Part shown: piece by piece, positions 34,736 to 37,574 of the stretch
How the letters are laid out: every line of letters begins with the position of its first letter
Numbering within the stretch: position 1 is the first letter of the stretch
Assembly: GCF_000425405.1 (NCBI RefSeq)
Contig: NZ_AUDJ01000001.1
Location: 372,001-436,000, forward strand
Length of the DNA: 64,000 nucleotides
Reading direction: 5' to 3'
Source of the DNA: Ferrimonas kyonanensis DSM 18153
GTDB taxonomy: Bacteria; Pseudomonadota; Gammaproteobacteria; Enterobacterales; Shewanellaceae
Notes under the pieces: generated by a model
The model's database searches: none
What the model was told of the DNA's origin: nothing
The model's input: the letters and a program-made list of their open reading frames with translations, nothing else
Translations under genes and position numbers: made by a program

Positions 34736-34750
34736 GCATTCGATGATTGA

Positions 34751-34780
34751 AAAGCCGGAGCCTATGCTCCGGTTTTTTTT
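34751..34780 (+). terminator. Terminator after sspB
   Basis: AAAGCCGGAG paired with CTCCGGTTTTTTTT around a six-base loop. Confidence 0.9.
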
Positions 34781-35206
34781 GCTTTGTCCGCGGAAAATCG
34801 TTCGGATTTAATGAAGCCTGCATTGGGCCTGAGCTTCTTTGCCCAGTCTTGGTTACAAAAAAGCGATTTCCCCAATATCGCTCATGTGATCGCGATCACG
34901 TTTTTGGCCTTTGATACTCAAGTTTTTGCATTTTGCGACGGTGTCGAGCTTGCTGCTCCGACCATCGATAAAATTGGCGTCAGAACAATTGATTGTAGAA
35001 AGCTTCTGAAAATTGGTGGCTCAGCCGGCAACCTTAATTCCAATCTGAAGTGTAATTAATGAAGATCATTTTTTGCTCTATATCAGTAAATTAATTTCTT
35101 CAAGGGGGTGGTTTTGAGCTGTTTGTCTAAAAAATGGGCCTTGAGTATTCTCTTCCCACTTCGTTATTCGGTGTCCGCGCCATTCGCAGCGGCATCGGGT
35201 GTGTTT
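34781..35206 (+). promoter_or_regulatory. Long AT-rich regulatory region ahead of the riboswitch
   Basis: About 425 bp without a credible gene, more AT-rich than its surroundings. It holds a CRP-like palindrome (listed apart) and an inverted repeat AATGA-N3-TCATT at 35058-35070 that has the look of an operator half-site pair. No well-spaced sigma-70 hexamers stood out. The two open frames here (34784-35059 and 35108-35353) lack RBS and recognisable sequence and are not called. Confidence 0.5.
34885..34900. promoter_or_regulatory. CRP-like binding site
   Basis: TGTGATCGCGATCACG fits the CRP consensus TGTGA-N6-TCACA except for the last base, and the six-base centre is itself palindromic. It lies about 510 bp before the lipoprotein gene, so it would act at a promoter well upstream of the riboswitch. 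Confidence 0.55.
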
Positions 35207-35207
35207 A

Positions 35208-35295
35208 GACAGCAGACAAAGGCAAAACCAGTGAGAGCTGGCGACGCAAAATCTCCGGTCTTAAGGCGTACGCCAAAGATAGCGGGATTACCTCA
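35208..35295 (+). promoter_or_regulatory. Cyclic-di-GMP-I riboswitch (GEMM)
   Basis: Matches the GEMM-I aptamer in order: ACAAAGGCAAAACC (35215-35228 region), a GNRA-capped hairpin CCAGT-GAGA-GCTGG (35228-35241), the invariant GACGCAAA (35243-35250), a second stem ATCT/AGAT (35251-35254 with 35277-35280) enclosing GGCGTACGCC (35265-35274), and the closing AGCGGGATTACC (35281-35292). The base equivalent to Vc2 G20 appears to be G, which favours c-di-GMP over cGAMP; this alignment is mine by eye. About 100 nt downstream the lipoprotein gene begins. No intrinsic terminator follows, so control may be at translation. Confidence 0.88.
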
Positions 35296-35395
35296 TGTCG
35301 TATGTGGTGTATTGAGGGAACAACGGTGCCGGGCTTATGGCCTGGTGTACTGACCAACCGTCGCGTGAAATTGTCTGCCGATTTAGGAGCATTAG

Positions 35396-37402
35396 ATGTC
35401 AAATCGGCATTTTCAGCTGGGCCCCAATGGCCTGGTAACACTGAAGACCCTGTTTTCAGTCACCCTGTTAGCGGTCACCCTGAGCGGGTGTGGGGGCGGA
35501 TCATCGGATCCGTCGCCGGACCCGGATCCGCCGCCGGTCATTCCGGACCCGGATCCTGAGCCGGACCCGGATCCAGATCCGGACCCGGACCCAGACCCAG
35601 ATCCGGACCCAGATCCAGACCCGGACCCAGACCCAGATCCAGACCCGGACCCGGATCCAGACCCGGACCCGGATCCAGACCCAGAGCCGGATCCAGACCC
35701 GGAAGTGGGGGTGATTCTGAGCTCCGATGCGGTGGTGTTTAATGGTCAGAATGCCTATGGCGAGATTGCCGATTGGCGTGCCGACGGCGATTTTCGCGTC
35801 GTGGCCTGGCTGGACGAGATTGCGGTTGAGGCCGGTGCCAAAACCATGCTGTTGTCCTCCGCCGCCAATGGCGATTATCTGGCCTTTACCCACAACAGCG
35901 TCGAAGGTCGCTGGAACGGTCAGACGGTGTCTGTCGGCGGGCAACTGGCGTTTGATCAGAGCCGCTACGTAGAGATTACCGTGGCCAATGGCAACCTGAC
36001 CGCCTCGGATGGCAGTGCCAGCGCCACCACCAGCAACGGTGCGGTAAGCCCGACGGCGGTGACATACAACTGGTTGTATCGTCAGCAGGATCAGTATTCT
36101 CAAGGGGCGTTGCAGTCACTGGCGTTGATCGACCTGGATAACAACGATCACTCCCGCGCCCTGAGCTTTGACCAGGACAAGGGCGTGGTGGCCTCCGGAG
36201 CGGGCGCCAACGGTACGCATCTGCTGATGAACGTGGCGGCGTCGGACTGGCGAGCCATTGAGTCGAACGTCAAGGCGCCGATGCCGCACCTGGCGAGCCA
36301 GGCGGAGTGGGATGCCCGCTTCGAACAGATGTACCCTAACCAGCGTCCGGTCATGAATGAGACCAAGGGCAACGACAACCTGGTGTACGCCTGGGAAGGG
36401 CATTACTGGCTGCGGGCTTACGTGCGCATGGCTAAGACCTATGGGGACAGCAAGTACCTGGACTACGCGGTTGAGCTGGCGGATCACATGCTGTATTACA
36501 CCGACGAACAGCGGGTAGAGCGGGGTGAGCTGAACATCTTCAATGAGCCTTACCATGAGTTGGCGCCGAAGTTGTATCTGACCACGCCCGGGTTACCGGT
36601 TCCCGGATGGCGACGCCCCTATAATGGTGGCTGGCGCAATGAGGCACTGACCGACGGCATGATCCTCAATGCCATTATGCGGCTGGCGGATCACATTAAG
36701 AGTGACAACCTGACCGCCTATATGGCCAAGGCCGACAGTTACATCGAACGGGCGAAAGTGATTGTACGGGCACACGACACCTCATTCAGCACCACCAAGA
36801 ATGCGGCGATTCAGGGCTCCTACTTTTACGTCAACCCGGATAATGCCGATACCGGTGACAGTGGTTTGTACTCCAACCCTCTGCCGTTTAACCACAACAT
36901 GACCCTGGGTGTGGCGATGATCTACCTTAACAAGTGGACCAACGACAGCGGTGACCTCGGTCAGAAGGCCAATGAGATCCTGGGCTTCTATATGGATAAC
37001 CTCAAGGCGGACAGCAACAACGTCTGTACCTGGGATTATCAATACAAGGCCGACGGCAGTGGTAAGATGGAAGACTTTAACCACGCCCACCTGGACGTAG
37101 GCTTCATGGTTCTGGCCCGCCAGGAAGGGATGTTGGACAGCGACCAGCCGCTGACCTGCCTGGCCAACACCATGGTCAGCAATGTGTTCGTGGCGCCGGC
37201 CATGGCCAGTTTTGGTGTCGATGGCACTGGCTTGAGTTCAACCTGGGATCAGGTGGCCGTAGGCTATGACTGGATTGATCTGCAGGCGTACGATGCCCGC
37301 ATCGGAGACATCAGCGATCACATCCTGCGTCACTACGGCGCGCCGAACTGGTACCGGCCGTATCTGGCATCTGCCAATACCCTGTACTGGAACAACCAGT
37401 AA
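35396..37402 (+). CDS. Secreted lipoprotein with Asp-Pro repeat stalk, riboswitch-controlled
   Basis: 668 aa. AGGAG precedes the ATG. A lipoprotein signal ends in LSGC (Cys32), then an Asp-Pro dipeptide tract of about 65 residues (38-102), likely a stiff, acidic stalk. Next comes a beta-rich region (about 105-260) with a LamG-like look, then a helical part (about 290-668) with repeated aromatic motifs such as YAWEGHYWLRAYVRMAKTYGD and MEDFNHAHLDVGFMVLARQ, reminiscent of (alpha/alpha)-barrel glycoside-active enzymes or lyases. I do not recognise a named family. The GEMM riboswitch upstream suggests a role in biofilm or surface polysaccharide. Its own terminator follows. Confidence 0.75.
   Translation: MSNRHFQLGPNGLVTLKTLFSVTLLAVTLSGCGGGSSDPSPDPDPPPVIPDPDPEPDPDPDPDPDPDPDPDPDPDPDPDPDPDPDPDPDPDPDPDPEPDPDPEVGVILSSDAVVFNGQNAYGEIADWRADGDFRVVAWLDEIAVEAGAKTMLLSSAANGDYLAFTHNSVEGRWNGQTVSVGGQLAFDQSRYVEITVANGNLTASDGSASATTSNGAVSPTAVTYNWLYRQQDQYSQGALQSLALIDLDNNDHSRALSFDQDKGVVASGAGANGTHLLMNVAASDWRAIESNVKAPMPHLASQAEWDARFEQMYPNQRPVMNETKGNDNLVYAWEGHYWLRAYVRMAKTYGDSKYLDYAVELADHMLYYTDEQRVERGELNIFNEPYHELAPKLYLTTPGLPVPGWRRPYNGGWRNEALTDGMILNAIMRLADHIKSDNLTAYMAKADSYIERAKVIVRAHDTSFSTTKNAAIQGSYFYVNPDNADTGDSGLYSNPLPFNHNMTLGVAMIYLNKWTNDSGDLGQKANEILGFYMDNLKADSNNVCTWDYQYKADGSGKMEDFNHAHLDVGFMVLARQEGMLDSDQPLTCLANTMVSNVFVAPAMASFGVDGTGLSSTWDQVAVGYDWIDLQAYDARIGDISDHILRHYGAPNWYRPYLASANTLYWNNQ
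35507..35704 (+). repeat. In-frame hexanucleotide repeat encoding Asp-Pro tract
   Basis: Roughly thirty copies of a degenerate GAYCCN unit (GACCCG, GATCCA, GACCCA, GATCCG variants) in frame inside the lipoprotein gene. Because the unit is six bases, gain or loss of copies changes stalk length but not reading frame. The antisense frame is also open for the same reason. Confidence 0.92.
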
Positions 37403-37428: not shown

Positions 37429-37453
37429 GGCTGCCTTCGGGCAGCCTTTTTGT
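37429..37453 (+). terminator. Terminator after the lipoprotein gene
   Basis: Stem GGCTGCC/GGCAGCC with a stable TTCG loop and a long T-rich tail. Confidence 0.92.
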
Positions 37454-37574
37454 TTTTTTGCTCAGTTAATGACTCTGGTTACCTCGGTTAAGCCGCCGCT
37501 GATTACGGGTTAACTAGTTAAAAAATAAGTGTAAGAACCCCATTCTGACGGGATTTGACGCCGATCGTCTCACC

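Follow-up and report, generated by a model that had tools for sequence, protein, structure and literature searches.

What kind of surface protein is placed under a riboswitch for cyclic diguanosine monophosphate (c-di-GMP), and in which direction would the switch work, when the gene behind it belongs to no familiar family? This question is raised by a locus of Ferrimonas kyonanensis DSM 18153 within a stretch of 64,000 nucleotides (contig NZ_AUDJ01000001.1, positions 372,001 to 436,000 of the forward strand; "the window" hereafter, numbered from its first letter), where a c-di-GMP-I (GEMM-I) aptamer precedes the gene of a 668-residue lipoprotein. The joint explanation that we favor, with a probability of roughly one half, is that the locus forms a one-gene transcription unit in which a c-di-GMP switch governs a surface-anchored matrix-polysaccharide enzyme that would be made as c-di-GMP falls.

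A c-di-GMP-I aptamer and its expression platform

The aptamer was assigned by cmscan to RF01051 at 35211 to 35295 on the + strand with 69.9 bits (gathering threshold 35, E 1.2e-11) over the full model (1 to 87 of 87), and it is the sole gathering-level Rfam match in the window. GGCAAA, a GAGA (GNRA) tetraloop, GACGCAAA, and AGCGGGATTACC are all present, so that the class proposed in the first-pass annotation, which had been made from the letters alone, is borne out by the Infernal model search. The ligand-contact residues of Vc2 from Vibrio cholerae that are named in PMC4744006 (G20, A47, and C92) correspond to G35221, A35248, and C35283 by mapping on the Rfam alignment by eye. Judged by its sequence, the element is almost certainly a c-di-GMP-I aptamer and would bind this ligand. 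Aptamers of the GEMM-Ib type for cyclic GMP-AMP (cGAMP) presumably have an A in place of the G at position 20, a rule that did not turn up in one paper searched; on this rule, a cGAMP reading is not favored because the specificity position in the window is G. GGCA is found in 34 of the 39 aptamers of the genus and GCCA in the other 5, so that the first G is always kept. These 5 aptamers belong to one genome (G006; loci L070, L071, L065, and L066) and carry GCCAAA...GACGGAAA in place of GGCAAA...GACGCAAA, i.e., a flipped pair beside the ligand site according to the Rfam consensus.

The open reading frame (ORF) of the lipoprotein (35396 to 37402, + strand) starts 100 nt behind the aptamer, and this leader contains 2 overlapping complementarities. 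The aptamer 5' strand GCAGACAA (35212 to 35219) is the exact complement of UUGUCUGC (35371 to 35378; TTGTCTGC as DNA). The last 3 bases of the latter, UGC, at the same time open the 5' arm of a 9-bp hairpin, UGCCGAUUU / AAAUCGGCA, that emerged from leader folding and shuffles. The arms of this hairpin (TGCCGATTT, 35376 to 35384, and AAATCGGCA, 35401 to 35409) enclose the Shine-Dalgarno sequence AGGAG (35385 to 35389) and the AUG in their loop, and the 3' arm lies within the coding sequence, where it encodes an N-terminal SNRH. Sequence and leader comparison further predict a P1 stem of the aptamer formed by GACA (35208 to 35211) and TGTC (35296 to 35299). At low c-di-GMP, GCAGACAA would pair with UUGUCUGC and thereby withdraw UGC from the hairpin enclosing the ribosome-binding site (RBS) and start codon, which would permit translation. 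With c-di-GMP bound, the aptamer would retain its own 5' strand and leave UGCCGAUUU free to pair with AAAUCGGCA, and the resulting hairpin would block initiation as in an OFF switch.

The closest known system is Vc2 itself, which is described in PMC7371385 as limiting tfoY translation in V. cholerae when bound to c-di-GMP. The 2 elements are alike in aptamer sequence and structure, and RBS-masking translational repression is proposed for both (PMC7371385). They differ in that the hairpin described here holds both the Shine-Dalgarno sequence and the AUG in its loop, that the 5' arm of the hairpin overlaps the strand complementary to the aptamer 5' strand, and that the gene controlled belongs to a new family of surface proteins; the platforms are likened here by their description. 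An RBS-masking helix that competes with a helix taking up an aptamer strand, as expected of a Vc2-like OFF switch, is found in the window leader, and this layout predicts repression by c-di-GMP. The leader thus far suggests a translational OFF switch of the Vc2 kind, and we consider this direction probable.

Comparison of 18 leaders (16 from Ferrimonas and 1 each from Neiella and Paraferrimonas) gave computed support for the complementarity. All 8 Watson-Crick pairs of the anti-aptamer helix are present in 14 leaders and 7 in another one, and base changes on one strand are compensated on the other at pair 1 (G-C to A-U in Paraferrimonas), at pair 6 (C-G to U-A in 3 related genomes, probably a single event), and at pairs 5 and 7 in the leader G009L of F. 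senticii, where 2 other pairs are broken. Own strands pair at 7.4 of 8 positions on average and swapped strands at 6.5, a modest margin because most strands are alike. The best complement of the window leader was equalled in 27 of 2,000 shuffles, and in 13 of the 16 leaders that were shuffled this happened 0 to 36 times. Taken by itself, the RBS-enclosing stem is unremarkable in the majority of leaders (3 to 790 of 1,000 shuffles equalled it), and it owes its weight to its conserved position and to the conserved TGCCGA/TCGGCA sequence, which Neiella retains despite divergence in the central part of its leader.

Constrained-fold energies were computed for 13 of the 18 leaders, leaving out aptamer tertiary contacts and ligand. 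The anti-aptamer strand and the RBS hairpin overlap by 3 to 4 nt in all 13, and enforcing the anti-aptamer helix, at a cost of 0.15 to 2.0 kcal/mol relative to the free ensemble, lowered the probability of the innermost RBS hairpin pair to 0.12 or less in 11 of them. Relative to the anti-aptamer state, the RBS-hairpin state is less stable by 0.06 to 8.7 kcal/mol in 12 leaders and more stable by 0.14 kcal/mol in one; P1 was enforced along with the RBS hairpin in 11, the script having matched no P1 in G002w and G005L. Setting aside the aptamer raised the probability of the TGCCGA stem in each of the 9 leaders (of 16) in which the script picked this stem.

Several observations weigh against this account of the platform. 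The register of the anti-aptamer helix was set by hand in all leaders, and 3 Ferrimonas leaders (G010L, G001L1, and G009L) form merely 4 to 6 of the 8 pairs, with their best complements equalled in 258, 1,752, and 1,243 of 2,000 shuffles, respectively. The RBS hairpin persists despite the anti-aptamer helix with a probability of 0.58 in G002w and 0.40 in G001L2. A platform from which the aptamer has been set aside is free by construction, so that the layout itself would give the gain of the stem, which is no independent proof. Opening the stretch from Shine-Dalgarno to AUG costs more with the aptamer aside in no more than 9 of the 16 leaders, a measure that is poorly informative on direction because both elements lie in the loop of the hairpin. 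When the window leader was first folded freely, the Shine-Dalgarno sequence was likewise paired for the most part, with bases located 5' of the aptamer. Finally, Vc1 of V. cholerae gbpA is an ON switch according to PMC4744006, so that direction cannot be transferred from one c-di-GMP-I switch to another.

We therefore considered that the leader is an ON switch or acts on transcription and that its anti-aptamer complementarity serves another role. The ambiguous energy test would allow this, and both signs exist among c-di-GMP-I switches according to PMC6366702 and PMC4744006. A transcription-terminator platform was rejected because the terminator scan listed no hairpin of this kind with a T-run on the + strand from 35295 to 35396, where the aptamer ends and the ORF begins, and the conserved hairpin enclosing the Shine-Dalgarno sequence and AUG also speaks against this alternative, which we regard as unlikely.

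The hairpin leaves a trace in the protein. The N-terminal RH or RQ of many family members (SNRH, NHRH, TNRH, YRQ, and NRQ) is encoded by its 3' arm UCGGCA, and the RNA structure thus seems to dictate the first residues of the protein; if so, this would be an example of a riboswitch platform shaping the first codons of its target. The Paraferrimonas leader, whose aptamer is of the c-di-GMP-I-GGC class, has the same anti-aptamer design (ACAGACAA/UUGUCUGU).

A stalked lipoprotein with predicted LamG-like and barrel domains

The lipoprotein begins with an N-terminal hydrophobic segment and a lipobox read by eye as LLAVTLSGC, with the acylated cysteine of LSGC at residue 32. It continues with an Asp-Pro (DP) repeat stalk (residues approximately 38 to 104; 35507 to 35707), the first 110 residues holding 27 DP pairs, followed by a LamG/pentraxin-like β-sandwich domain (residues 105 to 290; 35708 to 36265) and an (α/α)6-barrel domain (residues 292 to 668; 36269 to 37399). 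Neither the protein nor its family has a match reaching the cut-off in Pfam, NCBIfam, or PHROGs. Sequence matches in the PDB are carried by the proline-rich stalk, without which the best E value is 0.14. A match to AaBgIC (E 2e-18, residues 38 to 169) was rejected because its alignment runs over proline repeats and vanishes without the stalk, and chain 8e1e_A, matched across 30 residues at E 0.005 and at E 0.11 when the barrel was searched by itself, was taken as a chance match. As far as these searches reach, the family looks undescribed, in line with the first-pass annotation, which could not place the protein either.

Structure prediction was more telling. AlphaFold2 modelled residues 105 to 668 from a 24-row alignment with a predicted local distance difference test (pLDDT) score of 94.5 and a predicted template-modelling (pTM) score of 0.92, and the barrel alone with 92.5 and 0.93. 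With the full model as query, Foldseek matched the N-terminal part to PTX3 (E 4.3e-5) and agrin (E approximately 2e-4), both with probability 1.00; the likeness to LamG, pentraxin, and laminin G-like domains extends over about 160 to 173 columns at 9% to 17% identity, and no Laminin_G or pentraxin profile of Pfam is listed for the window protein or family members. With the barrel alone, 6 matches reached E ≤ 0.001: a GH76 mannanase (2 entries), Dfg5, a cellobiose 2-epimerase, and GH105 (2 chains). The helical barrel that the first-pass annotation had proposed for the C-terminal part was thus recovered by both Foldseek and VIA, and the LamG/pentraxin-like domain ahead of it, which that annotation had not recognized, came out of the same Foldseek check on residues 105 to 668.

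The VIA comparison assigns the barrel to a fold class and not to a family. Among the 50 entries shown, GH76 α-1,6-mannanases, GH88/GH105 unsaturated glucuronyl hydrolases, and cellobiose/N-acylglucosamine 2-epimerases (AGE) align across the whole domain with Z scores of 19.9 to 22.8 (root-mean-square deviation 3.4 to 4.8 Å over 282 to 333 residues) at just 6% to 12% identity and with no profile match above cut-off. The best scores lie within 2 Z units of each other, which makes the fold class clear and leaves the family unclear: 22.8 for 3k11, a putative glycosyl hydrolase (3.9 Å, 320 aligned), 22.2 for GH76 4v1s (4.4 Å, 301 aligned), 21.8 for the 2-epimerase 3wkf (4.2 Å, 315 aligned), and 21.1 for GH105 4xuv (3.5 Å, 286 aligned), with ranges of 20.1 to 22.2 for GH76 entries and 20.3 to 21.8 for AGE.

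Family-level searches agree with this. PF07470 (GH88/GH105) gave weak matches below cut-off in 2 of 27 members and none in the own genome, and GH88 membership was not used because the match in a paralogue is weak (E 0.0096, 15.4 bits versus a cut-off of 26.6). PF03663 (GH76) matched neither the window protein nor the own genome, and it is absent from the families listed for the 27 members. An hhalign comparison of alignment A3 with a single template, labelled AGE-like by eye, gave a probability of 0.4%. Searches of the class and phylum reference genomes for GH88 and GH76 returned 6 partial matches, 2 of them barely above cut-off, which by eye are mostly thioredoxin/DUF255-type proteins plus one AGE-type protein.

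An active site is suggested by invariant residues of the barrel, among them W301, R302, R310, D316, G317, H356, H396, D456, and H459 (in the numbering of the 564-residue part behind the stalk). The catalytic Asp-Asp pair of GH76 was looked for at the level of sequence, where alignment A2 shows an invariant D316-G317. Polysaccharide cleavage is nevertheless called into question by 2 points: linalool dehydratase also reaches Z of about 20, so that the fold is no proof of sugar chemistry, and epimerases share the fold. Taken together, the model quite probably describes a glycan-active surface protein. In the mechanism that we propose, the DP stalk would hold a lectin-like LamG domain and an (α/α)6 barrel of carbohydrate-active type at the cell surface, where LamG probably binds polysaccharide and the barrel probably cuts or trims it.

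A recurring riboswitch–protein pair and its proposed exopolysaccharide link

The pairing of aptamer and lipoprotein is a recurring riboswitch–protein family and not a one-off. The closest relative, in Ferrimonas sediminum, is 96% identical over the 564 post-stalk residues, and the family occurs in 11 of 97 related genomes, namely in 9 of the 14 of the genus (own included) and in 2 of the sister genus. When a barrel profile was used, 369 genomes at class level yielded members in a single one (the own), and 398 at phylum level yielded them in 2 (the own and a congener). A wider contig scan with the family alignment, its reach limited by 2 peptide patterns, gave 20 loci that all belong to Ferrimonas, Paraferrimonas, or Neiella, and the family appears restricted to these genera as far as they were sampled. 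Relatives that would indicate a mobile origin were absent from 72,556 plasmid and 50,697 phage records.

RF01051 hits number 39 across the 14 genus genomes, none of which lacks one. The ORFs downstream encode 6 window-type lipoproteins, 10 paralogues (9 of about 1,280 to 1,370 residues and one of 671), 5 lipoproteins of 887 to 907 residues, 4 ParA-like proteins, 2 of LPMO10 type, 1 GH18, 3 of M11-peptidase/cadherin type, and 8 others; Pfam was run on some of the targets outside the family, including 2 of the 3 M11-type ones. Conversely, the 9 Ferrimonas genomes that carry the family contain 24 members; an aptamer precedes 16 of them, and the remaining 8 without one count against a strict coupling. 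Rfam searches of 10 of the 20 loci found an aptamer in 2: RF01051 (72.8 bits) ahead of a 1,595-residue member in Neiella and c-di-GMP-I-GGC (RF03167, 66.3 bits) ahead of an 824-residue member, one of 3 in tandem, in Paraferrimonas. On a tree of 31 barrels, the 6 window-type proteins form a single clade (100/100) with the aptamer in all 6, and aptamer presence changes 4 times across the tree, at least 3 of these changes being forced by supported branches, compared to a mean of 10.3 in shuffles.

The link to exopolysaccharide (EPS) comes from a long paralogue in the same genome (1,335 residues, 4 LamG-like units and the barrel; aptamer at G000:C2:146811). The cluster beside it encodes, by Pfam, GT4 (2 genes, one with WecG/TagA), GT2, Wzy_C, ManC, ManB, and an initiating Bac_transf, as well as a protein without Pfam match that looks flippase-like by eye. 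With 8 proteins of this cluster as tblastn queries (E ≤ 1e-20), EPS genes were found to adjoin a family member in all 9 Ferrimonas genomes that carry the family: all 8 in 7 genomes (L062, L101, L102, L103, L149, L151, and L152) and 2 or 3 in L110 and L113, whose stretch ends inside the cluster. Elsewhere, members neighbor 5 of these genes in Neiella (L109) and 3 and 4 in Paraferrimonas L120 and L121, respectively, and none in Paraferrimonas L122. In P. sedimenticola (L120, 3452 to 9793), 3 members stand in tandem inside the EPS cluster, the middle one behind the c-di-GMP-I-GGC aptamer, and in P. haliotis (L121) members lie near EPS genes with no aptamer in the stretch examined.

The window gene itself lies outside the EPS cluster, between sspB and mraZ, and none of the 8 EPS genes was found in the 13.5 to 13.7 kb around 4 of its orthologues (L104 to L107), both of which weaken the proposed substrate. 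Nor were the same genes found around the own third paralogue (L061), which lacks an RF01051 aptamer and adjoins an acyltransferase-3 gene, or around 8 further stretches with the remaining Ferrimonas members (L114, L115, L116, L118, L119, L123, and the overlapping L094 to L100). The EPS link is thus that of the long paralogue and reaches the window protein by homology. The polysaccharide role suggested in the first-pass annotation gains support from the paralogues and none from the neighborhood of the window gene. Most likely the substrate would be the Wzx/Wzy-type EPS of the cell itself, whose gene cluster carries the long paralogue, though we put the chance that this matrix polysaccharide is cut at about even odds.

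Another reading is that the protein is a matrix scaffold or adhesin like the RbmC/Bap1-type matrix proteins, with a barrel that is non-catalytic or merely binds glycan and holds cells to EPS, in which case one would expect an ON switch, or an OFF switch that serves timing. The LamG-like domain, present in 4 copies in the own long paralogue and 5 in the Neiella protein, the long DP/DPV stalks seen in the family, the EPS-cluster synteny, and the ON switch Vc1 of gbpA would all suit a scaffold. It is made unlikely by the many invariant polar barrel residues (R302, R310, D316, H356, H396, D456, and H459 in alignment A2), which suggest an active site, and by a platform that reads as OFF. Less likely still is a foraging enzyme that feeds the cell by breaking down algal or animal glycans from the environment, with c-di-GMP as a mere signal of attachment, as might be surmised from the LPMO10/GbpA-like protein, GH18 chitinase, and M11-peptidase/cadherin proteins behind the same aptamer class in congeners and from the distance of the window gene to EPS genes, because a paralogue adjoins the EPS cluster in 9 of 9 family-bearing Ferrimonas genomes, in Neiella, and at 2 Paraferrimonas loci.

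For the matrix-polysaccharide enzyme, we infer a role in matrix remodelling or dispersal when c-di-GMP falls. RbmB of V. cholerae, a matrix-polysaccharide lyase according to PMC11637428, would share this role of cutting the own EPS and is likened by role. ZmpI of Clostridioides difficile also remodels the surface and is c-di-GMP-repressed through a class I riboswitch; it is a protease that releases surface proteins in a different phylum, where class I switches work by transcription termination (PMC6366702). Among the papers searched, none joins Ferrimonas with c-di-GMP or with "c-di-GMP-I riboswitch". While the riboswitch class and the type of mechanism are known, the protein family, the EPS tie of its long members, and its coupling to the switch look new.

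Many of these marine bacteria are metal reducers. More tentatively, we propose an undescribed family of lectin plus (α/α)6-barrel proteins that degrade EPS and are repressed by c-di-GMP through a conserved translational riboswitch. If true, c-di-GMP itself would keep a dispersal enzyme repressed and set it free upon a drop, without an intervening protein regulator, matrix turnover in these bacteria would be tied to c-di-GMP by a single RNA element, and a carbohydrate-active family missed by sequence searches would be added.

Gene layout and other aptamer-preceded genes

The lipoprotein gene is flanked by a terminator-like hairpin of the upstream gene sspB (34749 to 34778, + strand; terminator scan) and by its own intrinsic terminator (37429 to 37454, + strand; stem-loop 37429 to 37446 plus T-run), which confirms the earlier proposal that the gene is closed in this way. 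Between 34700 and 37700, 7 terminator-like sites were counted on both strands, compared to 3.3 ± 1.9 in shuffles, and no σ70-like promoter is listed on the + strand from 34700 to the aptamer. The position between sspB and mraZ is the same in F. sediminum, F. futtsuensis, F. sediminicola, and F. aestuarii. The window gene is missing from 8 congeners, and sspB was found within 1.5 kb of mraZ at none of 14 loci examined. The description of the aptamer as standing alone is correct for this locus and not for the genome, because the assembly contains 3 RF01051 aptamers.

The third of these (69.7 bits; L063, G000:C1:275892-278558) precedes the gene of an 888-residue lipoprotein that matches nothing in Pfam and behind which lies a type IV pilin-like gene (N_methyl), and similar aptamer-preceded lipoproteins occur in 4 more genomes. 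In 4 congeners (L074, L075, L076, and L080), the aptamer lies ahead of a ParA/MipZ-like ATPase gene, an unusual c-di-GMP target, and the 3 loci that were read (L074, L076, and L080) have a membrane-protein gene, DUF368-like by eye, shortly 3' of it. At L069, L072, and L068, the gene behind the aptamer encodes a secreted peptidase of the M11 (gametolysin) type that has cadherin/Big_9 domains, assigned by scan for the first 2 and by likeness of the start for L068. The aptamers at L077, L078, and L079 stand before a GbpA-like LPMO10 that bears chitin-binding modules, a protein that is probably orthologous to it, and a chitinase of family GH18. The leaders of the LPMO genes follow the same logic as that of the lipoprotein with different bases, combining an AAAGGCA/UGCCUUU complementarity with a UGCCU/AGGCA hairpin at the Shine-Dalgarno sequence.

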